From Tepidibacter hydrothermalis (GTDB lineage Bacteria; Bacillota; Clostridia; Peptostreptococcales; Peptostreptococcaceae): 64,000 bases of DNA. The notes under the pieces are model-generated. The model was not told the DNA's origin. It was given only the letters and a program-made list of their open reading frames with translations, and searched no databases. Made by a program: the position numbers and the translations under genes. Location of the stretch: assembly GCF_029542625.1 (NCBI RefSeq), contig NZ_CP120733.1:992001-1056000 (forward strand), read 5' to 3'. This document shows positions 4,730 through 38,321 of the stretch, piece after piece. The stretch's first letter is position 1. Every line of letters begins with the position of its first letter.

Positions 4730-4920
4730 GGTCATATAAATTATTAAGTGATTATATATAATACTTGGTAGAGCGTAAGTATTTTTATATGCTTTTGAAA
4801 AAATAACTAAATGCGAAATAGTGTAAAATTATAAGATATTATGTTAAAATTATAAGGTTAAGGATAATGTATATTATTTTAAATAATATTGTTGGCAAAT
4901 TTGAAGCAAGGAGAATTAGA

Positions 4921-6706: not shown

Positions 6707-7597
6707 GTGAGCAATATAACTAAAATAAAAATTAAAGGTCACGAAAGTTTCTATATAAGAGAAGGCTGGCTTAGTAAAGGTATGAAAAGTATTAATGAAG
6801 ATTCAAGTTTATTTTCGAATAAATTTGCTACGGATACTTTAGGGGTAGGAAGTAATATGGTGAAGTCTATAAGATATTGGCTTCAAGTATGTGGATTAAC
6901 AGAAGAAATAAGCGGTTATAAAGGAAAAAGAGAGCAGTTTTTAACTGATAGTTTAGGTAGAATAATATTTGAAAAAGATCCATACTTTGAAGATATATTT
7001 TCATTATGGTTAGTTCATTATAAATTGGCTTCAAATAGAGAATTAAGTACAACATGGTATTTGTTCTATAATGATTTTAAAGTTGAAGAATTTACTAAAG
7101 AAGATTTATTAGATGGAATGAAGTTAGCATTAGATAGAATAGATGCTAATTTAATTTATTCTGAAAAATCACTGCAAGATGATTGTAGTTGTTTAATAAA
7201 AACTTATTGTTTAGATGATAGTACAGAAAAAAATCCAGAAGATAATCTTATTTGTCCTTTAACAGATATTGTATTAATAAAAAGAAAAAAGACTTTTGAT
7301 AAAAGAGAGTATTATGTAAAATGTACACCTAGTATTGATAAATTAGATAAGTTAGTCATACTATACGTTATATTAGATAATATAAAAGATAATAAAACTA
7401 CTATTGATAGTTTATTAAATAATAATTGTAATGTTGGTAAGATTTTTAATCTAAATAGAAATATATTAAATGAATATTTAGATATATTAAAAAATGATGG
7501 ATATATAGAAATAAATAGAACGGCAGGATTAGATACAATATATGTTAAAGATATTACTAAGGAAGAAGTTTTAAATAGGTATTACGAGCAACTTTAA
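6707..7597 (+). CDS. DUF4007 family protein
   Basis: A 296-aa protein with the hallmark DUF4007 segments: GHESFYIREGWLSKG at residues about 10-25, an FATDTLGVGSNMVKSIRYW stretch near 45-63, and GLTEE after it. The family's function is not established; it typically lies beside PAPS-reductase-like and ATPase genes in defence clusters, exactly as here. The C-terminal 60 residues look like a winged-helix region (FNLNRNILNEYLDILKNDGYIEI), which could read DNA. It starts at GTG after AGAGGAGG, 4 nt after the PAPS-reductase stop, and is followed by the ATPase gene after 13 nt, so all three are one transcript. Confidence 0.85.
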   Translation: MSNITKIKIKGHESFYIREGWLSKGMKSINEDSSLFSNKFATDTLGVGSNMVKSIRYWLQVCGLTEEISGYKGKREQFLTDSLGRIIFEKDPYFEDIFSLWLVHYKLASNRELSTTWYLFYNDFKVEEFTKEDLLDGMKLALDRIDANLIYSEKSLQDDCSCLIKTYCLDDSTEKNPEDNLICPLTDIVLIKRKKTFDKREYYVKCTPSIDKLDKLVILYVILDNIKDNKTTIDSLLNNNCNVGKIFNLNRNILNEYLDILKNDGYIEINRTAGLDTIYVKDITKEEVLNRYYEQL

Positions 7598-10600: not shown

Positions 10601-11258
10601 GATTAAAAACAAAATATTAAGAAAAACAACTTTAAAAAAATGTTTTGCAAGAATGTTAGAAATTAAAAATAAATTAGATAATCATATATTTAATGTTAAA
10701 AATCATTTAATATTAGAAACTAGGGAAGTATTTAATAAAGAATATCAAGGGAGCTTAGGGCAAGCATTAAAAAATTGGTATGATGATTTAAAAGAAACAA
10801 ATAAAAAATACTCGTATAATATTGAGGCTAATAATATATTAGAATTTATACAAAATTTAAATACTAACAATGAAATAGATATAGTAAGTAAGATGGCGTA
10901 TATAGTTACAGGTTTAAATATAGAAGACTGGAAAGATGAAACTTATTTGAAGTATAAAGAAGAAATACAAAAAATATATAAAGATGTATCTGAGGATAAA
11001 GAAGAAATACAAAAAGTATATGATGAAGTATATGAGTGTGAAGACGAAATTGCAATGACAAGTGTAGAGTTATATAAGGTAGTTAAAGTTCAAAATGGAA
11101 AACTAGCAAAAGAAAAGAACTTTAAGGGAAAAGATATTTCTCCAATAGGAGAAACATTATTAAATCAAATGGAAGAACTATTTGAAGAATACGGTGAATC
11201 AATAGAGGTAAATGAAAAAAGAAATATACTAATGCAAATATTACAAAAGTACATGTAA
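7611..11258 (+). CDS. Large P-loop ATPase of the sulfur-modification cluster
   Basis: A 1215-aa protein. A Walker A motif (GPYGKGKS, near residue 62) and a Walker B strand (GIFVVFDEF, near 248-256) mark an N-terminal AAA/STAND-like ATPase; residues 270-330 include a likely sensor region (ITCITHKAIN). The remaining 850 residues are helical and mostly unassigned. The layout resembles the large ATPases of BREX (BrxC/PglY-like) and of Dnd-associated clusters, which couple ATP hydrolysis to modification or restriction. GTG 7611 follows AAGGAGG. It is co-transcribed with DUF4007 and the PAPS reductase; a 15-bp hairpin covers its stop codon. Assignment to a named family needs a profile search. Confidence 0.72.
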   Translation: MKYTKFIQANEGFQYAINLQYDISNLSKVKSYIPTKQSVDILKKYLLNIYYDKNDRSTILVGPYGKGKSHLLLILLSLLSFNIQNTEELGVINELIEKIKRIDEQAANICEELVKRENKFLPVIINSNYVDLNQAFLIALKNALKTFGIDDIFPNTYFDSIKKIIDVWSTDYKDAINIFEQELENYNLNIDKFINKLNSFDQQAYEIFTKIYPKISSGAEFNPLINADIVKLYSDINYIITEKYGFKGIFVVFDEFSKFLEAGVTKNVSKDIKILQDFAELANRSSNSQLYITCITHKAINEYIARLPKSSIDAWRAIEGRFNEIYFTSSSQQNYELISNTIIKDDEKFNKFIKQNIEKFKNKLDKSFRIFQDIFSYKEYENIIGLGCYPLNPLTSYILPKVSEKVAQNERTLFTFLSKNELGSLVNFINKNEGSLKFLGIDSIYDYFQILFRKEVFNQNIYNGWLKANNTMQKVSSEVEKNIVKAIAIIYIINELDKLAPIDEIIKLALDISDEEYKNAIESLLNKNILSKKKSNLFYRFTSSRESNVKEEITKIKNIKIKKINYAIQLSDLINLGYTLPRRYNDEYSMVRFFKKIFITTEQFLAYDEAKLLINEYKSDGLILNLIYLNQEEKQQAIEKIKELNNDRILLCIPNSPFDKEEELKEYTAVQYLKEDKQFLLEDEYALQELQIYEEDLVDCLNNYVKNGFNIEYENCYYYTINGIDKTIKKLSHLNRRISEICEEIFDKTPKINNELINKNNISSPINKARNKIIDYILSGMDGNSDYALKGNGPEVTIYRIAVKNKGLENSLISNDANLNYALNTIKEFILAAEENRISFSKLYEMLQDEEYGFGIRKGVIPIYLALVIKEFKEDIVIYFGDKKSKEISLTSQSLTNINESFENHYLLLEKGSNEKEDYINSFENLFKEYMPNKKIMSNRYVDIINAMQVWFNSLSKYTRVYFEDIINNNEVSKDIIELRKELCKFDINPREFLFDRIKNKILRKTTLKKCFARMLEIKNKLDNHIFNVKNHLILETREVFNKEYQGSLGQALKNWYDDLKETNKKYSYNIEANNILEFIQNLNTNNEIDIVSKMAYIVTGLNIEDWKDETYLKYKEEIQKIYKDVSEDKEEIQKVYDEVYECEDEIAMTSVELYKVVKVQNGKLAKEKNFKGKDISPIGETLLNQMEELFEEYGESIEVNEKRNILMQILQKYM

Positions 11259-11296: not shown

Positions 11297-12457
11297 GTGT
11301 TAGATAACATTGTTTATTTAGATAATGCAGCAACTACTTTTCCAAAACCTGAAAGAGTATATGAACAAATGGATAAAGTAGGTAGAGCATATGGAGTAAA
11401 TGCAGGTAGAAGTTCCTATAAGTTAGCTAAAATGGCAAACAAACTTATAGATGAAACAAAAAGTGAGTTAGGCAGTTTAGTTAATACAAATGAAAATGAT
11501 ATAGTTTTTTCACCATCAGCAACTATTGCTTTTAATCAAATTTTACAAGGGCTAGATTTTAAAACCATAAATAACGTGTATGTTACTCCTTTTGAACATA
11601 ATGCTGTTATGAGAACATTAAATTTTTTACAAAAAAAATATAAGTTTGATATAATAATTATCCCATTTGATAATAAAACATTTGAATTAGATAAAAGCAA
11701 ACTTAAAATAAAGTTTGCAAATAATAATCCTGATATAATAATTATGTCACATGTAAGTAATGTAACAGGATATATCTTACCTATAGAAGAAATTATACAA
11801 GTTGCAAGTAAATATCAACCAATAGTTATCTTGGATGCAGCACAATCTCTTGGATTGATATCTATAGATTTATCAAAGTTAGATGTAGACTTTTTGGTAT
11901 TTGCAGGACATAAAACACTATATGGTCCTTTTGGAATAGCAGGTTTTATTAATAACTATAAAAAGGGTAATTTAAATGAATATATATTAGGTGGAACAGG
12001 TTCTGATTCTCTAAATTTAAATATGCCTGAAGAGGGACCTCTAAGATATGAAGCAGGAAGTCAAAATATAAATGCTGTAGCTGGGTTAAATGCATCCTTA
12101 AAATGGATTAAGGAAACAGGTGTTGAAAATATATTTAGAAAAAAGAAGATTTTAACAGAAAAGATAATAAGTAAATTACAAAAATTATATGATATAAATT
12201 TATATATACCAAATAATTTAGACAGGCATATTGGAATAGTATCTTTTTGTTTAGGAGATTATAATTCAAATGAATTAGGTCAAATTTTAGATGAAGAATT
12301 TAATATATCAGTAAGAAGTGGTTATCATTGTTCTCCATTTATGCAAGAGTTTCTACAAACTCAACATAACTCAGGAACAGTAAGAATTAGTTTAGGCTAT
12401 TTTAATAGTGAAGAAGATATTGATAAGTTAATAGAATCTTTAGAAGAATTAGAGTAA
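11297..12457 (+). CDS. Cysteine desulfurase (DndA/IscS-like, aminotransferase class V)
   Basis: A 386-aa PLP enzyme. It has the N-terminal YLDNAATTFPKP segment, the PLP lysine in AGHKT (K206), an HVSNVTG strand and the active-site cysteine in SGYHCSPF (C345). It would release sulfur from cysteine as a persulfide and pass it to the PAPS-reductase-like protein, as DndA or IscS does for DndC. Its RSGYHCSPF loop is compact, closer to SufS/Csd (group II) enzymes than to the long IscS loop. The start is GTG after GAGGTGATT. It lies 38 nt after the ATPase gene on the same strand and ends at a strong terminator, so it closes the sulfur-modification operon. Confidence 0.9.
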   Translation: MLDNIVYLDNAATTFPKPERVYEQMDKVGRAYGVNAGRSSYKLAKMANKLIDETKSELGSLVNTNENDIVFSPSATIAFNQILQGLDFKTINNVYVTPFEHNAVMRTLNFLQKKYKFDIIIIPFDNKTFELDKSKLKIKFANNNPDIIIMSHVSNVTGYILPIEEIIQVASKYQPIVILDAAQSLGLISIDLSKLDVDFLVFAGHKTLYGPFGIAGFINNYKKGNLNEYILGGTGSDSLNLNMPEEGPLRYEAGSQNINAVAGLNASLKWIKETGVENIFRKKKILTEKIISKLQKLYDINLYIPNNLDRHIGIVSFCLGDYNSNELGQILDEEFNISVRSGYHCSPFMQEFLQTQHNSGTVRISLGYFNSEEDIDKLIESLEELE

Positions 12458-12847: not shown

Positions 12848-12959
12848 ATTAAATTTTAAGCGTTTAAACATTTCGAATTTAAATTAATGAATTTCTTTAA
12901 ATTCAAGGTGATGTAATATATAATATAATTGGATAAAATTGAATAATATGGAGGATGTT

Positions 12960-14060
12960 ATGAAGTTTGTAAGTGATGTCAAAGATGAATTAGAAATACA
13001 ATTGCCAAAATTAAAAACTAGTTTAAAAATAATAACAGGATTTGTAACTAAAGAAGCGTTTGATTTTGTAAATGAAATTATTGAAGATATAAATATTGAA
13101 AAATGGATATTATTTAAATTAAATTTATTAGATTTTCAAAAAGGTTCTAGCAGTTTTGATTTCAAAAAAGCGATTGAAACAGGGTGGAAGGTATATGTTG
13201 ATAATTCGGTACATGCAAAAAATTATATATTTGATGAAAATAAATATTTACAAGGTAGTGCTAATTTAACTTCTAAAGGCATTGGACTACATATAGAAAA
13301 TAGTGATGAAAATTGTACATTATTAAAATATAACAATGATACAAGAATATGGGTCGAAAATAAATTTAATGATTCTCTTGAAATAAATGAAAATAATATG
13401 GAACAAGTACAACGTTATATTGATGAAGTAATTAATATAGAGGATAAAGATATACTGTTTAAAAAACAAAAAAGTCTAGAGAAAAGAATTAATAAAGAAC
13501 ACTATAACTTTGAAATAGATGAGAATTACAAGAAATTTAATAATATATATTTGCTAGATAGAATAGAAGTGTTTAAAGAAGTTTTACAAAATAATAATAT
13601 TACATTAGAAATAACATATGAAAATTTAATAAATATATATAAATTTAAACCAAATAGTAGTTTAGTTAAAGAATATATAATTGATTTAGACAAAATAGTT
13701 AAATATGATAAATTTAATGTAAATAATAAAATGTATTCATATACACCAAAAATCTACAAATATAAAAACAAATATTTTTTAGAAAATGTTGATTATTATT
13801 GTAAAAATAAAATTAACTCTAAAGAACTAAAAATTATTAATGAATCTTTAAAATATTTATATAAAAAAGGCATTTGTGTAAATTTTGATGAAGATAAGAT
13901 GTATTTTAGAAGATACAAAGAGGTTCCTTATTATAAAAACTTTTATTCTTTAGAAAATATTCAAAAGGAATTATTAGAACAATATTATATTGGCAAACTA
14001 CAAAAGCTTACGGAAGTAAATGTACATAATAAAATTAAAAGTTTTAGGTTGGAGGAATAA
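12960..14060 (+). CDS. Phospholipase D-fold nuclease, module 1
   Basis: A 366-aa protein with one PLD (HxK) motif: H85-x-K87 in SVHAKNYIF, followed by GSANLTSKG at residues 99-107. A single motif implies that two subunits form the active site, as in Nuc and BfiI-type nucleases. Residues 150-366 are lysine/asparagine-rich and helical with no recognised domain. ATG 12960 is preceded by GGAGG; in-frame starts at 12939 and 12948 lack such a site. The AddB-like gene begins 4 nt after its stop, and a UvrD helicase follows, so a nuclease-helicase complex is likely. Target (foreign or unmodified DNA) is inferred from context. Confidence 0.8.
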   Translation: MKFVSDVKDELEIQLPKLKTSLKIITGFVTKEAFDFVNEIIEDINIEKWILFKLNLLDFQKGSSSFDFKKAIETGWKVYVDNSVHAKNYIFDENKYLQGSANLTSKGIGLHIENSDENCTLLKYNNDTRIWVENKFNDSLEINENNMEQVQRYIDEVINIEDKDILFKKQKSLEKRINKEHYNFEIDENYKKFNNIYLLDRIEVFKEVLQNNNITLEITYENLINIYKFKPNSSLVKEYIIDLDKIVKYDKFNVNNKMYSYTPKIYKYKNKYFLENVDYYCKNKINSKELKIINESLKYLYKKGICVNFDEDKMYFRRYKEVPYYKNFYSLENIQKELLEQYYIGKLQKLTEVNVHNKIKSFRLEE

Positions 14061-14064
14061 AAAA

Positions 14065-17000
14065 ATGAGTAAAATGTACTTGATTGCAGATATAAATATT
14101 GAAAATGAAAATATAAAAGATAGTCTTAAGAAATATTTAACAAAAGATACTAAGTATCTATTTTTAACAGCTACAGGTTCGTTAAAAGATCTAAGAAAAT
14201 ACAAAAGTGAAAATTCTAAAAAAGATTTAAAGAATATGCTAGGTATAAAAGAATATGATAAATTATTATTTGATAAAAGAATAAAAGAGTCCAGAAAAGA
14301 TGGAAATATAATTTTAAATGAATTTAATTTATTTACTATAACGGAATTTAAAAAAGCAATTTCTCAAGGGATATATCAAAATAAAGATATAGAATTTATA
14401 TCAGTTCCTGATCAGAAATACATTTTATCTGTTTTAATAGATAAAATGTTTGAATATGATCAAGTGAAATTACAAGCATTTAAAGGTATGAGACATGAGA
14501 TTTTTGAATTATATGATTTCTTACAATTTTATGAAAAACAAATTAGCTATGATACTATTAAAAAAATCAATAAAAATTATACAAGTTTTGAAGCTGAAAT
14601 TTTTAGATTATATAAAGAATATTATGAATTAATTAATATTGTTGTACATAAAGCGAATATTGGTAAATTTGAAGAACTTGATAGTTGGATTAAAGATTTG
14701 TTTAAAGAATCTGCATTTAAGGAAAATATAGAGATATACCAGAATGTTTTAAAAAAGGAAATTGAAAACTATATTAAAAATGTAGACAAAGTTATATTTG
14801 ATGGGTTCTTATTTTTCAATGATTTACAGAAATTTATTATTAAAATTGCTGTGAATCTAGGAAAAGATGTAATTTTTATTGCGAAATATAATATATTTGA
14901 AGAAACTTCATCATTTTTGTTTAAAGAAAATTATAATAAAATTGCAGAAGAATTTAATTGTATTCTCAATATTCCAGAATTTAAATTTGATGAAATTTAT
15001 GATAGAGAAGATGATACATTTTTAAAAAGTTTACAATGTAATTATCCTAAAATAGTAACGGATAAAAGGATAATTAAAATAAATCAAAAAATAAAAGATG
15101 ATCCAACAGTAAATATATTAAAGCCATTTCCAAGTAGAGATGAAGAGTTAGAATATGTAGCAAAAGATATTGGTAAATATATAAAAGATAATTATAAAGA
15201 TGGTATAGGTGATTATAAAGATACTATAAGGAATATATTAAACAAAATATCAATAGTTATTGCTGTTGATAAGGAAAAATATGAAGAAAGATTAGATTTA
15301 GTTTTTAATGAATATGGAGTATTTATAGTTAATAAACAAAAACTAGATAAGTTAGATGATATTCAAATTGAAAATATAGATGTAGAAACTTTAAAAAACA
15401 AAATATATTATTCAAAAAGAAATTTTTTAAGTGAAGAAATATTCTTTAATAATGGGCAAGCATTGACAATAGAAGAAAAATATAAACTTTTTAAAGCTTT
15501 TGATTCAATAAAAACTAGTAATACTTCTAAATCACTAGCTTCATATCCAATAGGTGAATTCATTTTTCAAGTATATAAAATAATTTCTGAAGGGATATCT
15601 ATTGATGTATTTAAAAAGATACTTTATTCAAACTGGAAATTTGTTTTAGGAAAAGAAAGTATTGAGTGGAATAAATATATTTCAGATTTCAAAAATATAC
15701 AATCTTATTTTGAAGATTTAAATGAAATAACACAATGGATTAAAGAGATAGAGGATATAATAGCTTTAAAATCAAATATATCAAATAATAAATTTTATAA
15801 ACATCATCCATTTAATCATATAACTTATGAAAGTTTATACTTTATTGAAAAGACATTAAAGGATATTGAAAAAGTAAAAAAGGAACTGGAAAATATAAAA
15901 GGAAGCATAACTGAACATATTGATGGGTTAAAGAAAAATTTTGATTTAATGCAATTAAATTATACTGATAAAGAATTTGAAAAGAAGATAGTTAATAAGA
16001 TTGACAATGCTCTTGATCAAGTTGGGAAAAATACAACGGTTGATAATATGGATGTAGTAGATTTTTCATATGGTTTAAAAGGTATGATCAAAGAGTGGGA
16101 AAAAGACCAAGAAGAGATAAAAAATATACTTCAGTTAAATGTGGTAAATCTTGAAAATATGAAGAGTTTTGATAGATCTTATTTTATTATGTTAGAATCA
16201 GATAAATATCCAAGACCGTATAGTAATACATTTCCTTTTAATGATGCAATTTTAGAAATCTTAGAAGATGAAAAATATAATATTAATCAAAAACCTCCAC
16301 ATAAACACAGTATAGATTACCATTTAGATCTTGAAAAATATTTATTCAAAAATGTTTTAGATTTTACAAAGAATAAATTAGTCATTAGTCATTCAGAAAA
16401 AGAATGTTCTAATAAAAAACATTATTCAATTTTCATTGAAGATATAGCATCAATGTGTAATCTATCAGTTAAAGATATTTTAAGAGATTCAGATAAATTT
16501 GATGAAAATGAAATAGATTTTGAATTGAAGTTAAAAGAAGAATTAAAGTTAAAAGAAAAAGGTAGATATTCATTATCTGGATTAGGTCAATATTTACTAT
16601 GTCCTATATATTATTTTCATGAAAATTATGAGGATCAACAAGGTGGAATTACTTATGTCAACAGATTTCAATTGAGATTTTATGCAGAAGCTATATTATA
16701 TAATGTACTGTTTGATGAATTTATTAAATATAACGAGGCTAATAACAATGTATATTCTAGTCATGAGGATGAATATTATTTTATTTTAGATTTTATATTA
16801 AATAAACGTGCTAATGACGTATTTAAATATTTTAGTTTTTTAAATGATTTTGAGAAAAAAGATACAAAAAATAAAGTATTTAGAAAAGCAATTAACTTTA
16901 TTAATCAAAATGCAGTTAAACAAGGATTTAACAATTTTAGAGTAATTACACCTCAATCGAAGGATAATGATAAATTTATTTTTAATAATGATATATTGGT

Positions 17001-17370
17001 CGAGGAAATTATTAATAAAAGTGGAGTTAAGCCAACAAAACTGAGATATCAAAATAATAAATATTTAGATTTTCCTGTACTTAAGACGAATATTTATTCA
17101 GAGGTACCAAGGGATACTAATGTATTAATTGAAGAACTTGAATCTGAAGATAATATAGATAGAATTAATTATATTTCATCATTAATACATAGATTTAATG
17201 TGAAATTTAGAAGTAATTATATATATGCTAAGCAAGTACGTGATAAAATTAAGAAATGCAACTTTTTCGAAATAAAACCTCAAAATAGTAGATTTTGTTC
17301 ATATTGTAGAATAAATGAAATTTGTAAAGGACATATGCTTCTAAGTAAGGAGGATGATCATGAACTTTAA
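14065..17370 (+). CDS. AddB-like iron-sulfur protein without visible nuclease motif, module 1
   Basis: A 1101-aa protein with AddB-like organisation: a diverged helicase-like N-terminal half with no Walker A motif, and a C-terminal region that opens with YSLSGLGQYLLCP (first Fe-S cysteine C846) and closes with C1078-x2-C1081-x5-C1087. These four cysteines match the 4Fe-4S staple of AddB nuclease domains. Between them I do not find the GRIDR and DYK residues that form the PD-(D/E)XK catalytic site, so it probably serves as a structural or DNA-binding subunit. ATG 14065 follows GGAGG and lies 4 nt after the PLD gene; the helicase gene overlaps its end by 11 nt. Confidence 0.72.
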   Translation: MSKMYLIADINIENENIKDSLKKYLTKDTKYLFLTATGSLKDLRKYKSENSKKDLKNMLGIKEYDKLLFDKRIKESRKDGNIILNEFNLFTITEFKKAISQGIYQNKDIEFISVPDQKYILSVLIDKMFEYDQVKLQAFKGMRHEIFELYDFLQFYEKQISYDTIKKINKNYTSFEAEIFRLYKEYYELINIVVHKANIGKFEELDSWIKDLFKESAFKENIEIYQNVLKKEIENYIKNVDKVIFDGFLFFNDLQKFIIKIAVNLGKDVIFIAKYNIFEETSSFLFKENYNKIAEEFNCILNIPEFKFDEIYDREDDTFLKSLQCNYPKIVTDKRIIKINQKIKDDPTVNILKPFPSRDEELEYVAKDIGKYIKDNYKDGIGDYKDTIRNILNKISIVIAVDKEKYEERLDLVFNEYGVFIVNKQKLDKLDDIQIENIDVETLKNKIYYSKRNFLSEEIFFNNGQALTIEEKYKLFKAFDSIKTSNTSKSLASYPIGEFIFQVYKIISEGISIDVFKKILYSNWKFVLGKESIEWNKYISDFKNIQSYFEDLNEITQWIKEIEDIIALKSNISNNKFYKHHPFNHITYESLYFIEKTLKDIEKVKKELENIKGSITEHIDGLKKNFDLMQLNYTDKEFEKKIVNKIDNALDQVGKNTTVDNMDVVDFSYGLKGMIKEWEKDQEEIKNILQLNVVNLENMKSFDRSYFIMLESDKYPRPYSNTFPFNDAILEILEDEKYNINQKPPHKHSIDYHLDLEKYLFKNVLDFTKNKLVISHSEKECSNKKHYSIFIEDIASMCNLSVKDILRDSDKFDENEIDFELKLKEELKLKEKGRYSLSGLGQYLLCPIYYFHENYEDQQGGITYVNRFQLRFYAEAILYNVLFDEFIKYNEANNNVYSSHEDEYYFILDFILNKRANDVFKYFSFLNDFEKKDTKNKVFRKAINFINQNAVKQGFNNFRVITPQSKDNDKFIFNNDILVEEIINKSGVKPTKLRYQNNKYLDFPVLKTNIYSEVPRDTNVLIEELESEDNIDRINYISSLIHRFNVKFRSNYIYAKQVRDKIKKCNFFEIKPQNSRFCSYCRINEICKGHMLLSKEDDHEL

Positions 17371-19561
17371 TGAAATATATAAGCAAATAGTGATAGATAG
17401 AAAACCAACTCCTATTCAAAAATCTGTCATAGAGGATATGAAATTTCCAAAATATTTGAAAGCTGGAGCAGGCTCAGGAAAAACAGAAGTGTTAGCTAGA
17501 AAGATAATAAATATATTAAAAGAAGATGATGAAGTAGATCTTCAGAAATTTGCTATAATAACTTTTACAAATAAAGCAACAGATGAGATGAAAGAAAGGA
17601 TAGGAAAGTTTTTATATTACCATTTTTTAAAACATTATTATGTTAGAAAAGACCCTGAATTAATTAGAGATGAAAATTTTATGAGAAAACAAGTAGAACT
17701 ATATAATATGATTGATATTTCAACTATTCATGGATTTTGTGAAAAAATAATTAGAGACTATGGAATGCTTGATAATATTTCACCAAATTTTGAAATAGCA
17801 TCTATAAAAAATGATCAAAATAAAATCATTATAGAAGTTATGAATAAATACTATAATAACGATGTTTTATCAAATATTCCAGAGTATGTATTGAAAAATT
17901 TACTAGAGATTTTCTTAGCAGATAACGAAAATAAAGGATTTATTATAGACGAGTTTATTAAAAAAAATACTGATATTAACACAATAAATAATGATTATTG
18001 GAACAATTTTAAAAAGATTTTCTTTGAAATCTATGATGAAGTTTATGGTAAAATTGAAAAAATTAAATTAGAAAAAAATATATTAACTTCAAATGATTTA
18101 GTAAAACGAGCAGCAAAACTAATTGAAAATTCTTATGTTATTAATAAACTTTCTGATAAGTACAAATATATATTTTTAGATGAGTTTCAAGATACGAACA
18201 ATAACCAATTTGAAATTATTGATAATCTTATGAAAAAAGGTGTAAAGGTATTTTTAGTAGGGGATGATAAACAATCTATTTATGCGTTTAGAGGTTCTGA
18301 TATTGAAAATTCACGAAAAATGGCAAGTGTAGTAGAAAAACTAAATCATGATGAACAAATAACAATGACTGAAAATTTTAGAACTGATTATGAATTATTA
18401 AAAATAATTAATGAAATATTTGAACACAAATTTAATGCTCAAAATGAAGAGTTAGAGTTTGACACAGAGAACTTAACAAAAATAGAAAAATTACAGGGGA
18501 ATGACTTATCTGATGATCCATTTAACATTATTCATGATAGAGAATTAGTTGATGTGATTAAGCATTTACATGATAATGTTAAGATAAAAGATAAAAAAAA
18601 TACGTTACTTAGGAATGTTCAATATGGAGATATAGCTGTTCTTTGTAGAAGTAACTTTGATTTAGATAATTATGCACAATTGTTAAAAGAAAAGGATATA
18701 CCTGTAGAGGTATTTGGGGGGAAAGGATTTTACAAGTCTAAAGAAATTATTGATACATTTAAACTATTTAATAGTGTAATTAATCAAGCTAAAGTCTATC
18801 AAACTGAATTGAAATTTACTGACTATTATAAATCAATAGTAACATCAAAAGACGAAATTAATTTTTATTTGTTCATAGACGAATTGTCACTTGTATTTAG
18901 AAAGGAATCTATTGAAGGAATACTTGATTTTATATATGCAAAGTCTAATATAATTGAATATTATAGATTTCATCAGAAATATCAATCAATAGCAAATTTA
19001 CATAAATTGAAAGATATCGCAAGAGAAATAGCTTCGGAAGATTTTCTTCAGCCAATTGAATTTATGGAATTTCTTAATAATATGATAATGTCAGGAAAAG
19101 AAGAAGATGAAGCAGAAGTTGCAAATGAAGATAAATCTAAAGGGGTTGTTTCGTTATATTCAATACATAAATCAAAAGGGCTTGAATTTCCTGTAGTAAT
19201 TATTCCTAAGATGGAAAAAAATCTTGTAAGAAAAAGCTTGGAACCTAAAATTATTTTTAAAGAAATCAAAGAAAAAGATGATAAAAAATATGGAATTGCT
19301 TTTAAGGATAATAGGTTGAGGGATATTAATATAAAGGATGAAGATTATGAAGAACTATTAGAAGATAATACAAAAGAAATGCTAGAAGAAGAAATAAGAA
19401 TTTTTTATGTAGCTACAACCAGAGCTGAACATAAGCTAATACTATTAACAGAAGATTCAAGTGAGGTTGATAAAAAAAATACTGTATCTTGGGGGAAATG
19501 GATACGTGAAATTGATAATGGAAATTTTGAAAGGAAGTATTTATACAGTTTTTCAATATAA
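17360..19561 (+). CDS. UvrD/AddA-like superfamily 1 helicase, module 1
   Basis: A 733-aa SF1A helicase with the full motif set: Q-motif TPIQKSVI, motif I AGAGSGKT (near 35-42), Ia TFTNKATDEMKE, a STIHGFCEKI segment, II LDEFQDT (near 273-279), III VGDDKQSIYAFRG, IV ENFRTD, V SIHKSKGLEFPVV and VI YVATTRAEHKL. It stops after motif VI, so it lacks the roughly 400-residue C-terminal nuclease domain of AddA. ATG 17360 follows AAGGAGG at proper spacing, whereas ATG 17354 lies against that site. It overlaps the AddB-like gene. Together with the PLD nuclease it suggests an AddAB-type machine whose nuclease is a separate subunit. Confidence 0.9.
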   Translation: MNFNEIYKQIVIDRKPTPIQKSVIEDMKFPKYLKAGAGSGKTEVLARKIINILKEDDEVDLQKFAIITFTNKATDEMKERIGKFLYYHFLKHYYVRKDPELIRDENFMRKQVELYNMIDISTIHGFCEKIIRDYGMLDNISPNFEIASIKNDQNKIIIEVMNKYYNNDVLSNIPEYVLKNLLEIFLADNENKGFIIDEFIKKNTDINTINNDYWNNFKKIFFEIYDEVYGKIEKIKLEKNILTSNDLVKRAAKLIENSYVINKLSDKYKYIFLDEFQDTNNNQFEIIDNLMKKGVKVFLVGDDKQSIYAFRGSDIENSRKMASVVEKLNHDEQITMTENFRTDYELLKIINEIFEHKFNAQNEELEFDTENLTKIEKLQGNDLSDDPFNIIHDRELVDVIKHLHDNVKIKDKKNTLLRNVQYGDIAVLCRSNFDLDNYAQLLKEKDIPVEVFGGKGFYKSKEIIDTFKLFNSVINQAKVYQTELKFTDYYKSIVTSKDEINFYLFIDELSLVFRKESIEGILDFIYAKSNIIEYYRFHQKYQSIANLHKLKDIAREIASEDFLQPIEFMEFLNNMIMSGKEEDEAEVANEDKSKGVVSLYSIHKSKGLEFPVVIIPKMEKNLVRKSLEPKIIFKEIKEKDDKKYGIAFKDNRLRDINIKDEDYEELLEDNTKEMLEEEIRIFYVATTRAEHKLILLTEDSSEVDKKNTVSWGKWIREIDNGNFERKYLYSFSI

Positions 19562-30502: not shown

Positions 30503-30531
30503 TTGACACAAAGTGATTAATATATTACAAT
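30503..30531 (+). promoter_or_regulatory. Promoter of nuclease-helicase module 2
   Basis: TTGACA (30503-30508), a 17-nt spacer and TACAAT (30526-30531) form a near-perfect vegetative promoter. It lies about 105 nt upstream of a leader peptide and 400 nt upstream of the PLD gene. Confidence 0.75.
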
Positions 30532-30638
30532 TTCTTATGATTTATTAAATAAGATTGTAAGTATAAAATTATTTGTATAAAAAGAGGGTTTTAAGCATAA
30601 TTTATAATTAGACTAAATTATATAAGGGTGATTATTAA

Positions 30639-30716
30639 ATGAAACATTTAAATAGATTTTATAAATATAATTTGTTAGTAGATAAATTAAATAATTCTTT
30701 TAAAAGAGGCAGTTAG
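30639..30716 (+). CDS. Leader peptide, 25 aa, of module 2
   Basis: ATG 30639 to TAG 30716 encodes 25 residues ending FKRGS, preceded by AAGGGTGATT. Its last five codons and stop lie in the 5' arm of the terminator at 30702-30739, so a ribosome stalled on or terminating at this ORF would disturb the hairpin. This is the arrangement of translation-controlled attenuators that raise expression when ribosomes are stalled. Confidence 0.6.
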   Translation: MKHLNRFYKYNLLVDKLNNSFKRGS

Positions 30717-30739
30717 CTTTAAAGCTAGCTGCCTCTTTT
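30702..30739 (+). promoter_or_regulatory. Attenuator hairpin of module 2
   Basis: A 17-bp stem (30702-30718 with 30723-30739), interrupted by one G-U-type mismatch, with a 4-nt loop; its 3' arm ends in CTCTTTT. It lies after the promoter at 30503 and before the module genes, overlapping the stop codon of the 25-aa ORF. Confidence 0.75.
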
Positions 30740-30833
30740 AGTTTGTAAAAAATAATTTACCAAAAATCAAATCTATAACATAACAACTTCTATATATTAA
30801 TTATCGACAAAATTAAAAGGAAGGGTGTACAAA

Positions 30834-30911
30834 ATGAAGTATGAACTATTTATTAGAATAGTCAATGATTTAAATATAATTACAAAACAATTTAGGAGTG
30901 AAGAAATATGA
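30834..30911 (+). CDS. Small 25-aa ORF coupled to the PLD gene
   Basis: ATG 30834 after AAGGAAGGGTG encodes 25 residues (MKYELFIRIV...EEI). The stop overlaps the PLD start in ATGA, so translation of this ORF would deliver ribosomes directly to the PLD gene. It could be a second leader ORF or a very small structural protein. Confidence 0.45.
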   Translation: MKYELFIRIVNDLNIITKQFRSEEI

Positions 30912-31795
30912 ATAGAAACTTGAATCAAAAAAGTAAAATTACAGCTTTTATAATAGAGGATGATGATATATATATGATAAATAAAGTGATATATGATTTA
31001 TTACACAAAAAAGAAGAAAAAATTACTCTAGTTGTACCTAGTGAGTTTAAGAAGATTATAATTAAACTCTTTAAAGATAGAGAATTTCCAATTGAACTAT
31101 ATGAAGTAAAAGATGAAGAAGAAATCTTTTATAGTGAAGTCTCTCCATATTATGAAGTAATTTATTTTAATCTTATTCAAGATAAGGCAAAGTTTATGAA
31201 TTGGATAGAAGATAAGAACGCCACTATTATAAGTAATAGCGAATATGGGTTAGATGAAAGCTTTATTAAAAAACAATACTTTGGAACAGGAAATTACGAA
31301 GCGATTAATCCAAATAAAAACATGATTGAATATATGAAAAAATGGAGGGGCAAAAGACGAATATATAATAAACAGATAACGGAATGGATTATAGATACTA
31401 TAAGAATTGCTAAAACAGAAATACACATGGGATGTCCATGGTTGAATGAAACATTTGATAGGTTCAAAAATGAATTAGAAAATGCACTAAAAAGAGGAGT
31501 AAAGATAAGGATATATTATGGTATAGGAGAAAAAGATGATAGAAGGGAAAAAACTGAAGAACAAATACTAAAACTTAAGATGGCATTTATAGGAAAAGGA
31601 GATTTTAGTGTAAAAAAGGTGAATTCACATATTAAAGATTGTTTAATTGATTATTGGTATATGAATGGAAGCAATAATTTTGGGAGTAATGCAATGAATT
31701 ATGAAGAAGCTCCAAAGGAGGGAGCTCTGGTACTAACAGTTGATGAACTAGAATTTAATGACATAATAGAAGAGTTTAACAGAGAGGGGCAATAA
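30908..31795 (+). CDS. Phospholipase D-fold nuclease, module 2
   Basis: A 295-aa protein. The N-terminal 120 residues form an alpha/beta domain without a known motif. The PLD domain begins near residue 155 (NKQITEWIIDTIRIAKTEI) and has the catalytic H241-x-K243 in NSHIKDCLI followed by NGSNNFGS at 253-260. One HxK motif implies a dimer. It overlaps a 25-aa ORF by ATGA and lies 2 nt before the UvrD gene. It corresponds to the PLD gene of module 1 but is shorter and only distantly similar, so the two modules are not a recent duplication. Confidence 0.8.
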   Translation: MNRNLNQKSKITAFIIEDDDIYMINKVIYDLLHKKEEKITLVVPSEFKKIIIKLFKDREFPIELYEVKDEEEIFYSEVSPYYEVIYFNLIQDKAKFMNWIEDKNATIISNSEYGLDESFIKKQYFGTGNYEAINPNKNMIEYMKKWRGKRRIYNKQITEWIIDTIRIAKTEIHMGCPWLNETFDRFKNELENALKRGVKIRIYYGIGEKDDRREKTEEQILKLKMAFIGKGDFSVKKVNSHIKDCLIDYWYMNGSNNFGSNAMNYEEAPKEGALVLTVDELEFNDIIEEFNREGQ

Positions 31796-31797
31796 AT

Positions 31798-34074
31798 ATG
31801 ATTCAGTTGTTACCATCTACTTTTAGTGAATTTAAAAAGTTAAGTACTATAAGACTTATTGAAAAATTAATATCTGAGGGAAGAGAAGCACATATAATAA
31901 CGAGTGGAGAACAATATGAATTTATAGAAAAGCAGATTGAAGAGAGGCAGCTTAGAAGTTTGATAAAAGTATATAAATCAGAACAGAATGTTCCAGATAA
32001 AACATGTAATGGAGCATTAAATGAAAACCAATATAAATTTATAAATAAATGGGTAAAGGATTTTAACACAGAACAGTATCAAGCTTTACAGTATGCAAAA
32101 ATAGAAAATATACAGATAAATGCTTCGGCTGGAACTGGTAAAACAACTCTTGTAATTAGAATAATATATGAGCTCTTAATAACAGGTAAAGTAAAACCAG
32201 AAGAAATGATAATAACTACTTTTACGAATAATTCAACAGAGGATATTAAGAATAGACTATATGAGTTATTTTACAAAAGGTGGCAAGTTTCTCATAATGC
32301 TAAATGTAGAGAACTAATAGAAAATTTTTATAAAATAAAAATTGTAACTTTAGATTCTTACAATAAAGAGCTTCTAGGAAAATTAGGTGGTCAATTTGGA
32401 TGCTCTAAAAATTTAAAGGTAGCAAATGAAAAAATAATACTTAAAAATATTATAACAAAGAAATTGAGAGAGTATCTTGATTTAAATAAAATTACATTTA
32501 CGAAATTAGGAATGGGTGAAGTAGACCTTATTAAATTAATAAATATATTCATTTCTCATAATAAGTTTAATGTTAGAGATATATCCAATTTTATACTTTA
32601 TGAAAGTAATGATGATGAAAGAGTTAAAGCGGTATGTAAACTTTTATATAATGTCTCAACTAATGTAATATGTGAAATAGACAACATATATATAAGAAAA
32701 GATAAAATTATCTTAAAGGATGTAGAGTATAAGCTTAATGAAATCTTTAACTATGGGTTTACTACGAAAGAAAAGATAGGAAGGATAAAATATATATTTG
32801 TAGATGAATGTCAAGATACTAACCTTTTACAATTTAATATTCTGAAGAAACTAAAGGATAGTACAAATGCAAAAATTATTGCTGTTGGAGATCCAAATCA
32901 AGCCATTTATGGATTTAGAGGTGCTAATCCAGAATCAATGGAAATGTTTGAGAAAATTGCAGATCAAAAAATAGAATTAAAGAAAAATTACAGAACACAG
33001 AAAAATATTTTAGATAAAATAGATGAAATCTTTAGTACACTTATTGGAAAAGAGTTTGTTAATCCTGTTGTAACAAAAGATAGTGGTGGTGTAATAGAAA
33101 AAATAACATACGATAGATATGATAGTTTTAAAGATATAGTCAGAAAAGTAAAGGAAAATTTACCTGATATTGAAAAGGCAAGACGAGATAATGAAGGAAA
33201 AGAAAATTTGAAAGATAGGATATCCATTTTGGTGAGAACAAATTCTAAAGGTAGAGAAATAGCAGATAGATTAAAAGAAGAAATATCGTGTACCTTTAAT
33301 AATGGAGGAAATCTATACAGAAGTAAAGCTGCAAGGGAGCTATTAATACTTATAAGATACTTGCTTATGCCAGATAATTTACTATATAAACTTCAAGTTT
33401 TAAATACAAGTTATCTAAACTGGGATTATGGAAAATTTAATTGTAAAGAGTTAGAAAAATTAGATACTGCTTATGTGGATAATCTTTTGTTAGATTTTAA
33501 TAATTATTTAAAAACTATACAAAATAGAACTCCTTTCGGAAAAATTTGCGAAATAATTGCAACACAAAATCCATCTAAAGGTATAGAATCATACCAGCAA
33601 GATCTAAATCTAATTTTAGATAGATTCATTAAAAATAGTAAAGTATCTAGTCTAGTGGATTTGGATATATTCTTAACTTTTAAGATGATACATGATCGTG
33701 AAGAACAGGATAGTCATCAAAAAAAAGCAGAAGATTTAGTAGTTGTTAATACTATGCATAGTGCTAAAGGATTAGAATTTCACACAGTTATTATGTTAGC
33801 AGACGACAATTATAGAATAGATGAAGAGAGAAAAGAGTTAATAAATATATTTTTTCAAAAATATACAGGTAAAGTAGGTATTAAATATAAAGAAAAGATT
33901 AGGAATAAATTTTTTACAGATATATTAGAAATAGAACAAGAAAAAATTAGAAGAGATGAAATAAATTTATTATATGTAGGAATGACTCGTAGTATAGAAA
34001 AATTAGTTGTAATTACTAACAATAATACTAAGAAATATACTTATGGTGAATTGTTGAAGAAAGGTGGATTTTAA
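31798..34074 (+). CDS. UvrD/AddA-like superfamily 1 helicase, module 2
   Basis: A 758-aa SF1A helicase. Residues 1-85 are an extra alpha/beta domain; the helicase core then has TEQYQALQ (Q-motif), INASAGTGKTTL (about 107-118), TTFTNNSTEDIK, VDECQDTN (near 335-342), VGDPNQAIYGFRGA, KKNYRTQ, NTMHSAKGLEFHTV and LYVGMTRSIEKL. As in module 1, the protein ends soon after motif VI and has no AddA nuclease domain. Its gene starts 2 nt after the PLD gene and overlaps the AddB-like gene at TAATG, so the three products are probably made together and assemble. Confidence 0.9.
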   Translation: MIQLLPSTFSEFKKLSTIRLIEKLISEGREAHIITSGEQYEFIEKQIEERQLRSLIKVYKSEQNVPDKTCNGALNENQYKFINKWVKDFNTEQYQALQYAKIENIQINASAGTGKTTLVIRIIYELLITGKVKPEEMIITTFTNNSTEDIKNRLYELFYKRWQVSHNAKCRELIENFYKIKIVTLDSYNKELLGKLGGQFGCSKNLKVANEKIILKNIITKKLREYLDLNKITFTKLGMGEVDLIKLINIFISHNKFNVRDISNFILYESNDDERVKAVCKLLYNVSTNVICEIDNIYIRKDKIILKDVEYKLNEIFNYGFTTKEKIGRIKYIFVDECQDTNLLQFNILKKLKDSTNAKIIAVGDPNQAIYGFRGANPESMEMFEKIADQKIELKKNYRTQKNILDKIDEIFSTLIGKEFVNPVVTKDSGGVIEKITYDRYDSFKDIVRKVKENLPDIEKARRDNEGKENLKDRISILVRTNSKGREIADRLKEEISCTFNNGGNLYRSKAARELLILIRYLLMPDNLLYKLQVLNTSYLNWDYGKFNCKELEKLDTAYVDNLLLDFNNYLKTIQNRTPFGKICEIIATQNPSKGIESYQQDLNLILDRFIKNSKVSSLVDLDIFLTFKMIHDREEQDSHQKKAEDLVVVNTMHSAKGLEFHTVIMLADDNYRIDEERKELINIFFQKYTGKVGIKYKEKIRNKFFTDILEIEQEKIRRDEINLLYVGMTRSIEKLVVITNNNTKKYTYGELLKKGGF

Positions 34075-36626
34075 TGATAAATATATTACCTTATACAAAT
34101 ATAAAGGATGTAGACAATAAAATATATCAAGATGCTGAAATAATTATTTTAGCTTATCAAGCAATGATAGAGCCTTTAAAAAAACAACTATTAAGTAAAA
34201 AAGTTACTTCTATAGGAAAGGTTCAAAAAAAAATTCTTCCGTTTCTAGATAATACTGAACTTGTGCTTAAAAATATAATAAGACTTAAAAAACTTATAGA
34301 AAATAGAGAAAATGTAAATAAAGGAATTGCAATGAGAGCACTTAAGCATGCAAATGATTTTATAAATTCTATAAAATTATTAAAAGAATTAAATATAGAT
34401 TTAGAAGAATATAAATTTGCTAATTTAACGGATGATGAACTTTTCTTTTGTGATGTTGCGGAGGATTTGTTGATTGAAAATAGTTATACAGATTATGATA
34501 TTAAAATTGAGAAGTATAAGATAAATATAGAGTATTTTAAAAAAGATTTTATAGATGCTATTGAATGCATTGTAGAAGACGAAAAAATTATAGAAAATTT
34601 AAAAAGTGTATCATTAAATAATAGAAAAAAAATAATTTTACAAGGATTTCACATAATTACACCGCCACAGCAAATGCTTTTTCATTTTCTAGAAAAATTG
34701 GGGTTTGATTTAATATTCTTAACTTGTTTTTCTCCTTATTCAGATTCTATTAATAAAGTTCTTTATAAAACTTATAATGAAAAATTTGGAATTAAGTTAG
34801 ATTTACCTAGAATGAATATAGATGATTGTAAATCGCCAGATCTTAGTAATATCTTTGCCATGACATTAGAGGGAATAGATGTTTCGGATATGGTAAAAAA
34901 ATATTATAAGAAGTATTCTGAACCAGATATAGAGATAAGGGTATATAAAGATAGAAATATGTATAATCAAAGTATAATAGATTCAATAGAAAAAGAAAAA
35001 TTTGTATTTTCTACAAACCCATCAAAAATAGACGAAGATATAGCTATTTTTGGTGGAGATCTTAGTTATAACAAGAGAATATCTATAAAATATTATCCTA
35101 TAGGCATATTTCTAAATGAACTATATAGTATGTGGGATAAAAATAGAAAAAATTATTATTTAAGTTTTGATGGTTTAAAAAAGATTTTTGAAAGTGGTAT
35201 TTTAGGTAGTGAGAAAGATAACGCAAAGAATTATTTAAATGATCTTGAGTATATTAGAGAATATTTTAGAGGATGTGAGACTTTAAAAGAATGGATTAAA
35301 AGGGCAGAGGATTTAACAATAATAAATAGAAATTTGGATATTATAAGGCAAAAATATGGACCTATTTCTATAAGTAAACAGAGAATACATCGTATACTAG
35401 ATTACCTTAAAGAGATAAAAAAATTAGCAGAAACAATATTTGATAATAATAATATAGAAAATGAAATGAGAAATCATTTAGAAATTTTACAAAACATACT
35501 AGAAAATGATATTAATACAAAAAAAGAAGACATTGTAGTAAAAAAATTACTTGAACAGATAAAAAATATATTAGAGAAAGGGAAGGCACATGGCATAAAG
35601 GTAAACAACAATTATCTCATAGACGCCATTACCGTATATATTAGTAAATTGAATAATATCGAATTATTAACTGATGATGATTATGAAGAGGAACTTGACG
35701 TAAAAAAGCTTGATAGAGTTGAAAACATAATGTTTGAAAATATAGATGAAATGTATTTATATGACATTAATAGAGATTCATTTCCTATGGTTAAGGGGAG
35801 TTTTACATGGCCTCTAAGAGAAGAGAGAATAAGAGAAATTCTTAAAATATGTAATGAAAAAAATGAATTTAAGAGAGTTTTGATTGAACGAGCATTATCT
35901 ATATTAGAAACACAGACAGATGCTACAAGATATATGTTTTGGATGGCTTTGAAAGCACCATGTAAAAAAATTATGCTAAGATTACAAGATTCGGAACAAG
36001 AAAATGCACATTTTTATGAATTAGAATTAAAAAAAGTTTTAGGAATTAATGAAAAGCAAAAGTCATATCCTACTGAAAATATAAATTTAAATAAAAAAAA
36101 CATTCCGTCTATCTCTGGATATTCAAAAATCGATATAAAAGAAGTAGATGATAAGTGTCATAAATATTGTGAACTTAAGGCTTTTTATGAAATAATGGCA
36201 GGTACAAAACCGTTTACAGATAAATTTACTATGGATGTTGGATTCCCAAATTTATTAAAAGCTTTTCATGATAATAATCAGAAAATTTCTGATGAAGATA
36301 TAAAAAAGTTACTTGAAAAATTATGTCCACAATATTCAGATTATAAAAAAAGAGAATTTATAAACCTTTTTAGACATGAGAAAAAGAGAAATAATAAAGA
36401 TTCACTTAGAAATTTAAATGATTCAAAGATAAATATACAAAAAGATTATAATGAATTTATACAATTAAAGAGATGTGAGCTAAAACAACAGGGAAAAGAT
36501 TTTGGTGACAAAGATATAGAAAGAGAGATATTTAAAGGAATCATACCTTTACCAACTAATAATTTTGAACACTGTAGATACTGTGAATATGTAGATACAT
36601 GTATATTTAGGAAGTTTGAATCTTGA
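34074..36626 (+). CDS. AddB-like iron-sulfur protein without visible nuclease motif, module 2
   Basis: An 850-aa protein related in design to AddB. The helicase-like N-terminus lacks a Walker A motif; an ILQGFHIITPPQQMLFHFLEKLG segment near residue 190 matches the AddB/RecC-type inactive helicase core. The C-terminus has cysteines C695 and C699 and a final C834-x2-C837-x5-C843 cluster (CRYCEYVDTC) consistent with a 4Fe-4S staple. No GRIDR or DYK catalytic residues are visible in between. It begins in the TAATG overlap with the helicase gene and ends the operon. It is the counterpart of 14065-17370, but gene order differs between modules. Confidence 0.72.
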   Translation: MINILPYTNIKDVDNKIYQDAEIIILAYQAMIEPLKKQLLSKKVTSIGKVQKKILPFLDNTELVLKNIIRLKKLIENRENVNKGIAMRALKHANDFINSIKLLKELNIDLEEYKFANLTDDELFFCDVAEDLLIENSYTDYDIKIEKYKINIEYFKKDFIDAIECIVEDEKIIENLKSVSLNNRKKIILQGFHIITPPQQMLFHFLEKLGFDLIFLTCFSPYSDSINKVLYKTYNEKFGIKLDLPRMNIDDCKSPDLSNIFAMTLEGIDVSDMVKKYYKKYSEPDIEIRVYKDRNMYNQSIIDSIEKEKFVFSTNPSKIDEDIAIFGGDLSYNKRISIKYYPIGIFLNELYSMWDKNRKNYYLSFDGLKKIFESGILGSEKDNAKNYLNDLEYIREYFRGCETLKEWIKRAEDLTIINRNLDIIRQKYGPISISKQRIHRILDYLKEIKKLAETIFDNNNIENEMRNHLEILQNILENDINTKKEDIVVKKLLEQIKNILEKGKAHGIKVNNNYLIDAITVYISKLNNIELLTDDDYEEELDVKKLDRVENIMFENIDEMYLYDINRDSFPMVKGSFTWPLREERIREILKICNEKNEFKRVLIERALSILETQTDATRYMFWMALKAPCKKIMLRLQDSEQENAHFYELELKKVLGINEKQKSYPTENINLNKKNIPSISGYSKIDIKEVDDKCHKYCELKAFYEIMAGTKPFTDKFTMDVGFPNLLKAFHDNNQKISDEDIKKLLEKLCPQYSDYKKREFINLFRHEKKRNNKDSLRNLNDSKINIQKDYNEFIQLKRCELKQQGKDFGDKDIEREIFKGIIPLPTNNFEHCRYCEYVDTCIFRKFES

Positions 36627-38012: not shown

Positions 38013-38321
38013 GTGTTTGCTTTTGTATATATAATATTAAACGTATTCATATATATGATGAATGAACTTAATTCAAGTACTGGTGAAACTATTAATTATT
38101 GTTTTTCTTCTAATCTCAAAGATTATATACCTACATTGGAAAAATTAATTGATTTTGGTGATTGTCTATACTTTAGTATAATGACATTTACTACAATTGG
38201 CTATGGTCATTTTGAAGATAATGGTTTGGTTGGTAGAATATTAATAATTTTAAAATATTTTTCAGTGTGATTATTATTACATTAATAACAGAAACTGTAT
38301 TAAGAAAATTATTTAGATAAT
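38013..38321 (+). pseudogene. K+-channel relic
   Basis: An 85-codon frame with a hydrophobic segment and the pore FTTIGYGHF, stopping at TGA 38268. The following bases continue the second membrane helix in another frame (IIITLITETVLRKLF), ending at TAA 38321, so a frameshift breaks it. The filter reads GYGH rather than GYGD. It resembles the C-terminus of the channel at 21357-23240 and lacks that protein's repeat domain. Confidence 0.65.

Follow-up and report, generated by a model that had tools for sequence, protein, structure and literature searches.

AddAB (RexAB), one of the known systems closest to the one analyzed here, combines a superfamily 1 (SF1) helicase, AddA, with a partner, AddB, that carries the four signature cysteines of an iron-sulfur (Fe-S) cluster, whose assigned role is the binding of DNA ends. 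Passages of PMC4824097 describe the helicase-like N-terminal domain of AddB as the Chi scanner of the complex. We examined a 64,000-nt stretch of Tepidibacter hydrothermalis DNA (contig NZ_CP120733.1, positions 992,001 to 1,056,000; hereafter, the window) that encodes, at two places, a trio made of a PLD-family protein, a UvrD/AddA-type helicase, and an AddB-like protein. The reading that we favor, and consider reasonably likely from sequence comparison, is that both trios (module 1 and module 2) are AddAB-derived complexes whose built-in nucleases are gone, whose PLD protein cuts in trans, and which serve as the restriction effectors of modification systems. Operon packing, kinship to AddB, loss of nuclease motifs, short helicase tails, the HKD motif, a swap of PLD for NERD, modification-gene neighbors, and agreement between trees together argue for this reading, from which we infer a defence role. 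The genes, with coordinates in the window, are:

12939..14060, + strand, module 1 PLD-family protein, 373 amino acids (aa), HKD motif in the N-terminal third (open reading frame [ORF], Pfam, motif scan)
14020..17370, + strand, module 1 AddB-like protein, 1116 aa (ORF, BLASTP, motif scan, profile-profile comparison)
17354..19561, + strand, module 1 UvrD/AddA-type helicase, 735 aa, without a nuclease domain (ORF, Pfam)
30908..31795, + strand, module 2 PLD-family protein, 295 aa, a predicted nuclease (ORF)
31628..31678, + strand, HxK(x)4D ... GSxN motif of the module 2 PLD, residues 241-257
31798..34074, + strand, module 2 UvrD/AddA-type SF1 helicase, 758 aa, without a C-terminal nuclease domain (ORF, Pfam)
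34074..36626, + strand, module 2 AddB-like protein, 850 aa (ORF, motif scan, alignment, profile-profile comparison)

The trio resembles AddAB in joining an SF1 helicase to an AddB-type partner with the four cysteines, with remote homology over the helicase-like part, but differs in lacking the nuclease motifs and the AddA-type tail, in having a separate PLD protein, and in its frequent modification-gene neighbors. The nearest published idea concerns UvrD-Cas4 fusions, which passages of PMC5704561 place beside type III restriction-modification (R-M) or Dcm/Vsr genes; like the trio, these unite an SF1 helicase with a RecB-family component and appear ancillary to several R-M systems, but there the Cas4-like nuclease is fused and taken as active, whereas here the AddB-like partner lacks such a motif and is supplemented by a PLD or NERD. 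Passages of PMC8092258 give SspE and SspFGH as restriction partners of the Ssp phosphorothioation genes; SspF has a Walker A motif, and the C-terminus of SspH resembles FtsK/SpoIIIE. Module 1, but not module 2, shares with SspABCD-SspFGH of Vibrio anguillarum FF-93 the layout of a three-gene restriction unit next to Ssp genes, yet the passages of PMC8092258 that describe that system mention no PLD, UvrD, or AddB. Identity of module 1 with SspFGH was rejected, as scans of the six module proteins revealed PLD and UvrD families and nothing of FtsK (for the UvrDs, among the best 25 of 43 and 48 matches).

Gabija likewise has a UvrD-like helicase and a separate nuclease, but the trio has an AddB-like subunit and a PLD in place of the OLD/TOPRIM nuclease GajA; GajA was not found in the PADLOC tables of the PLD and AddB-like proteins, in PADLOC scans of ten of the neighbors, or in Pfam scans. 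DISARM, Mokosh, and PbeA pair a PLD nuclease with a helicase, but their helicase families and partners are different and include no AddB-like subunit; PbeA, for instance, appears in passages of PMC10853773 as an HKD protein with an SF2 helicase. Neither DrmA nor DrmB (DUF1998) of DISARM is among the matches listed, DrmC being the one DISARM component matched, by the PLDs (E = 3.6e-08 for module 2, 0.00074 for module 1), and MkoA of Mokosh is missing from the best 25 of 43 and the best 25 of 48 matches of the UvrDs; the MkoB and MkoC matches of the module 2 PLD span 90 and 137 of its residues. Surveys of phosphorothioate (PT) and BREX systems describe, in the passages of PMC10853773 and PMC12839542, helicase-fused HKD nucleases and standalone NERD proteins rather than the trio, which is also absent from passages of PMC3710099, PMC12458937, PMC10910872, and PMC7641849 and, by title and the start of the abstract, from the open-licence PMC literature among the matches listed.

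Gene organization and comparison of the two modules

An earlier note on this DNA, made from its letters, had placed a PLD, UvrD, and AddB-like trio at 30908-36626; the three ORFs lie exactly there. Module 2 is a packed operon with a 2-nt gap between the PLD and UvrD genes and a stop/start overlap between the UvrD and AddB-like genes, all on the + strand. Its PLD matches Pfam PLDc_2 (E = 4.9e-07, 30.1 bits; cut-off 27) and consists of an N-terminal part of ~150 aa without an assigned fold and a C-terminal single-HKD PLD domain; its profile match to endonuclease 1byr is weak (E = 0.021). The helicase matches Pfam UvrD-helicase (E = 1.6e-38), and a pattern scan located motifs Ia, II, III, IV, V, and VI; motif I escaped the pattern, but ASAGTGKT around residue 109 fits it by eye. 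The AddB-like protein produced only matches below cut-off (Pfam TECR_N, E = 0.024; an NCBIfam epimerase model, E = 0.00085 with 18.9 of 271 bits).

The note had also held that the same three protein types recur 18 kb away in another order and with low similarity, and this is what module 1 (12939-19561) contains: overlapping genes in the order PLD, AddB-like, UvrD, of which the PLD just passes the PLDc_2 cut-off of 27 bits (27.3 bits, E = 3.5e-06), the helicase matches Pfam UvrD-helicase, and the AddB-like protein matches nothing in Pfam or NCBIfam. Between modules, BLASTP aligns the UvrDs (E = 3e-27) and the AddB-like proteins (E = 2e-9) but not the PLDs (E = 0.074). Given this lack of alignment, and an HKD motif that lies toward the N-terminus in module 1 (residue 92 of 373) but toward the C-terminus in module 2 (241 of 295), the PLDs may have been recruited separately; orthology between them is not demonstrable. 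Recent duplication of one module was rejected, the module 2 AddB-like protein standing at 34-35% to its relative in Clostridium sp. ZS2-4 (locus G654) versus 18-25% to that of module 1.

Kinship to AddB and the nuclease domains

As controls for the AddB-like family we used genuine AddBs, namely 14 of the 15 proteins above the TIGR02773 cut-off (L030 was omitted for an in-frame stop). Profile-profile comparison with these 14 gave 97.1% (E = 5.2e-11) for the 13-member AddB-like family, which bears out the label proposed in the note; the four type-1 and the six type-2-like proteins gave 94.6% and 87.7% as subsets. The negative controls (SspC, DndD, and a gyrase-A-like and a 1623-aa protein from the window) reached 3.1% at most, and 0.1-0.2% with the family profile. 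On the AddB profile the match runs from position 66 to 671, a span that by our own assignment should correspond for the most part to the helicase-like N-terminal domain. Profile searches of the PDB with the AddB-like families did not recover AddB, so the kinship is remote.

Genuine AddBs carry GxIDRxD, xDYKS/T, and CxxCx5C without exception (14/14), whereas CxxCx5C is present in all 13 complete AddB-like proteins and the first two motifs in none (0/13; 0/10 in a first set). P342, C699, C834, C837, and C843 are the only invariant positions in a 12-row AddB-like alignment, and the first and second signature cysteines are 135 residues apart in module 2 versus ~320 in genuine AddBs (our reading of the cysteine lists). 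By these motifs, the AddB-like proteins keep the four-cysteine Fe-S signature of AddAB but show no PD-(D/E)XK nuclease motif of AddB. On the basis of Yeeles et al., we infer that the UvrD/AddB-like pair retains DNA-end binding.

The helicases, in turn, are short. In 11 of 13 UvrDs the pattern for motif VI matched and only 25-45 aa follow it (27 aa in module 2, 45 aa in module 1), and the other two end ~50 aa past a near-variant of the motif; of the 13 AddA-like control ORFs, the 7 in which the motif was located extend 329-359 aa beyond it. The module 2 protein thus has the SF1 helicase domain of AddA without its C-terminal nuclease domain. Absence of the motifs from the AddB-like proteins, combined with the short UvrD tails, suggests that the pair has lost both AddAB nuclease domains.

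A substitute seems to be at hand. All seven PLD partners examined contain HxK(x)4D followed by [GA][ST]xN. In three loci without a PLD, a NERD domain above the Pfam cut-off occupies the N-terminus of the UvrD (E = 4.3e-10 in G115, 8.6e-06 in G099, and 4.4e-06 in G114), and the Exiguobacterium UvrD has an N-terminal extension without a family assignment. A PLD, or a NERD fused to UvrD, therefore seems to stand in for the lost nuclease, and the PLD looks swappable.

Architectures and neighboring modification genes

We accepted 15 loci:

Type 1 (PLD-AddB-UvrD), four loci: G000 (the window genome), G460, G618, G677
Type 2 (PLD-UvrD-AddB), three loci: G000, G654, G174
NERD type: G099 and G114 (near-identical), G115
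UvrD2 type: Geobacillus zalihae pJS1-2, G620, G831 (fragment)
Further accepted loci: Exiguobacterium plasmid, G249 (fragment)

The AddB-like family is rare in the samples searched, which are limited to the phylum of the host, with raw match counts of 3/297, 1/297, 6/398, 3/398, 9/257, 2/63, 2/13, and 4/99, which include the genome itself where it was sampled and come from different queries and overlapping samples. The constant core, by predicted protein family, is UvrD plus the AddB-like protein, around which four or more architectures occur in the wider family. In midpoint-rooted trees of both core proteins the four type-1 members stand apart (support 100/100), the type-2 pair of the window genome and G654 is joined (100/100), and the NERD members group (99/98 and 94/94); long branches leave the deep order unsure. 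The note's claim that the combination is a real unit is supported: the combination extends beyond this element, to four type-1 and three type-2 loci. Its suggestion of at least two subtypes suits the window and holds insofar as both trees set type 1 apart, but there are more than two architectures, and the PLD is not constant (NERD-UvrD, UvrD2).

Viral contig scans with the module 2 AddB-like protein, the type-1 AddB-like pair, and the type-2 PLD pair found no relative, nor did tblastn of a phage collection with two AddB-like proteins; matches to five queries in a plasmid collection were limited to Geobacillus and Exiguobacterium, and of 194 stretches in a scan of genome contigs with two peptide patterns, a single one was confirmed, that of Clostridium sp. 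ZS2-4. Several candidates were rejected: G429 and G500 (short matches in frames that by eye encode other proteins), G043, G181, and G735 (AddBs with GxIDRxD...DYK motifs), G239 (a nuclease-bearing 769-aa protein with a RecB/Cas4-like GxLD...DIKT stretch), and G797 (no AddB-like protein found in its neighborhood). G757 (E = 6.5e-5; N-terminus AddB-like by eye, locus cut) and G742 (E = 8.1e-4) were kept outside the accepted set. On the Exiguobacterium plasmid (L044, 5307-16647), the UvrD with the N-terminal extension and the AddB-like protein are accompanied by a 658-aa protein, a HerA-like ATPase, and an HNH endonuclease, possibly a further architecture.

Genes predicted to encode SspA, SspB, SspC, and SspD all lie beside module 1:

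4867..6702, + strand, SspD/BrxP-like PAPS reductase, PT modification operon beside module 1 (profile matches)
6707..7597, + strand, SspB (DUF4007; profile matches)
7611..11258, + strand, SspC ATPase (profile match)
11297..12457, + strand, SspA/DndA-type cysteine desulfurase (profile matches)

The SspD protein scores higher with BrxP (E = 8.2e-81) than with SspD (E = 1.9e-13). Type 1 adjoins Ssp genes at all four loci: SspD/B/C/A in the window, SspD/B/C in G460 (where a desulfurase-like start is discernible by eye) and G618, and SspC/A in G677. In G677, SspA is separated from the PLD-AddB-UvrD trio by PbeA and PbeC genes, which gives three PT-related modules in series (L043, 2269-9482). Two of the three type-2 loci have 5-methylcytosine (5mC) methyltransferases upstream: two in G654, one 386-aa ORF separating them from the trio, and one directly upstream in G174, which also has a MutH-family protein and an AAA_5 protein, McrB-like in our own reading, downstream. 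The NERD loci contain DndC/D/E (G099), DndC/D (G114, by tblastn), and DpdE/F/H (G115). In Geobacillus, an annotated cytosine methyltransferase and an AlwI endonuclease lie ~7-9 kb past the helicase genes; G831 has methyltransferase-like ORFs by eye only. In 10 of the 15 loci a modification protein is backed by a profile, by a record, or by tblastn with a query from another locus. A tblastn screen was positive in 11 of 15 stretches, but its queries came from the same loci and it hence restates the annotation. Among 14 genuine AddB loci (16-20 kb), none matched the 11 queries or contained an HKD ORF of at least 150 aa, which shows that AddB genes do not in themselves bring along a modification neighborhood; this control provides no null for defence-island clustering.

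The note had suggested that module 2, lacking an adjacent modification operon, may work alone. No modification gene was seen near it within the window, but its type-2 relatives in G174 and G654 have upstream 5mC methyltransferases, and SspABCD is ~18 kb away in the same cell. A check of defence catalogues, proposed in the same place, gave the following: no PADLOC model matches either AddB-like protein at E <= 0.1, PADLOC 2023 contains no AddB-like model, and the modules do not have the make-up that defines SspFGH, Gabija, DISARM, or Mokosh. The trio is a real and recurrent gene unit lacking from PADLOC 2023 and probably a little-known kind of restriction machine; PADLOC 2023 misses such systems because the AddB-like proteins match none of its models.

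Proposed mechanism, rival readings, and surroundings

In the favored reading, UvrD and the AddB-like protein would pair as a heterodimer, bind DNA ends, and unwind the DNA (or process unwound DNA), and the PLD protein would dock on this pair and cut the DNA being processed. Modified sites, or another self signal, would stop or inhibit the complex and spare self DNA, leaving phage or plasmid DNA as the target of restriction. Phosphorothioation by SspABCD would be the obvious self signal for module 1; module 2 could depend on a methyltransferase encoded far from it, share the Ssp marks of its cell, or dispense with a mark altogether (a sensor or abortive mode). We more tentatively entertain a broader version, a modification-agnostic restriction motor: phosphorothioate, 5-methylcytosine, and 7-deazaguanine systems would each have adopted a nuclease-stripped AddAB-type machine, with the cutter exchanged (PLD, NERD) and an AddB part, derived from the Chi scanner, reading the self mark as the complex translocates; the chemical mark would then stand where Chi stands for AddAB. 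In that version the cell would have a second reader in module 2. If the restriction reading is true, machines of break repair would be tied to restriction, host AddAB and RecBCD choosing destruction or repair by Chi and the trio family deciding by a chemical mark, and Ssp, Dnd, Dpd, and 5mC loci would gain an effector candidate. Exchange of PLD and NERD on one scaffold would make modification sensing by a translocating helicase testable.

Several observations weigh against restriction by a nuclease-stripped pair. Five of the 15 loci lack a confirmed modification protein, namely module 2 (no modification gene seen near it in the window), G620, Exiguobacterium, the G249 fragment, and G831 (candidates by eye only). 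In Geobacillus, G620, and G831 a second UvrD-like helicase (by eye in G831) is present and no nuclease was recognized, and at E <= 0.01 Pfam recognizes nothing in the PLD of one type-2 locus (L015). The trees place G174 away from the rest of type 2. The nuclease motif pattern can miss divergent sites, as it did in G239, and the AddA nuclease pattern, which picked up only 1 of 13 AddAs, carries no information, so that tail length alone counts for the UvrDs. The Exiguobacterium AddB-like protein bears the NCBI name "PD-(D/E)XK nuclease family protein" despite its absent motifs, and the C-terminal part of the type-1 AddB-like profile weakly matches a PD-(D/E)XK chain in the PDB (E = 0.22); we read both as traces of the Fe-S/Cas4-like end, but they could instead point to a diverged nuclease fold. 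AlphaFold models were too poor to be used (pLDDT 54.6 for the PLD, 39.1 for the AddB-like protein) and lend no fold-level support.

The strongest rival, which we nevertheless regard as doubtful, is a damage- or end-sensing abortive system in which UvrD/AddB-like senses ends or aberrant structures, such as those arising when phages block host RecBCD/AddAB, and releases an indiscriminate PLD, the modification genes being mere island neighbors and module 2 modification-free. Such sensing agrees with the absence of modification genes near module 2 in the window and with G620 and Exiguobacterium, relatives that have neither a PLD nor a recognized modification gene. Hachiman and Gabija are presented as helicase-nuclease sensors in the abstract of PMC12278908 and in passages of PMC12407980. 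However, Ssp genes at every type-1 locus, together with Dnd, Dpd, and 5mC genes elsewhere, seem to exceed what general island clustering would give.

AddAB ancestry would also suit an accessory recombination or repair complex, a second AddAB-type end-resection system without a defence role, which we think unlikely. The window genome has no match to RexB (TIGR02774), AddB (TIGR02773), or RecC (TIGR01450), making replacement conceivable, and the Geobacillus plasmid genes come after DNA polymerase IV and YolD-like genes. However, the congeners G195 and G240 of the window genome have no AddB match and G203 a weak one, while all three are without an AddB-like gene (RecC is unmatched in all four genomes); the existence of congeners without both argues that the AddB-like protein is not the AddB substitute of the genus. 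The patchy spread (in the order sample, 9 of 257 genomes gave a match, and three of these were discarded because the protein bears a nuclease), the low GC around the modules, and the modification-gene neighbors also speak against a repair role. It is very improbable that the trio is a variant of an already named system (Gabija, DISARM, Mokosh, SspFGH, PbeABCD, or BREX type 4): the UvrDs match many GajB models (best E = 3.4e-37 and 9.2e-46) and the module 2 PLD matches MkoB (1.8e-11) and MkoC (1.4e-06) besides DrmC, but these matches look superfamily-level, the defining partners are absent among the proteins scanned, and the AddB-like proteins have no PADLOC model.

Upstream of module 2 lie elements that could provide attenuation or leader-peptide control (30503-30911):

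30503..30739, + strand, candidate regulatory leader of module 2, with a promoter-like TTGACA-17-TACAAT at 30503-30531 (one locus only)
30639-30716, + strand, 25-codon ORF in the candidate leader, terminating within a 17-bp perfect hairpin (30702-30739)
30834..30911, + strand, second 25-codon ORF, its stop overlapping the PLD start codon

Promoter-like sites are not in excess in this stretch (14 versus 18.3 in shuffles), and a terminator scan did not report the hairpin.

GC content is ~20-26% at ~8000-42000 versus mostly 27-29% in the flanks, and a serine recombinase is encoded between the modules (24126-25667); the region could be a mobile defence island. Four proteins around module 2 (26269-26970, 27786-29501, 38500-39558, and 41707-43452) have no Pfam match at E <= 0.01; that at 38500-39558 matches phrog_30306 (E = 1.8e-20), a family without an assigned function, and that at 41707-43452 weakly matches the PADLOC model PDC-M34B (E = 7.5e-05). 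A pentapeptide-repeat protein fused to an ion-channel domain is encoded at 21357-23240, and across module 2 from it a short ORF (38013-38270) appears by eye to be a second channel fragment. Directly downstream of module 2 (~37030-37180), frame-broken stretches resemble what we take to be the remnant of an IS6-family transposase.

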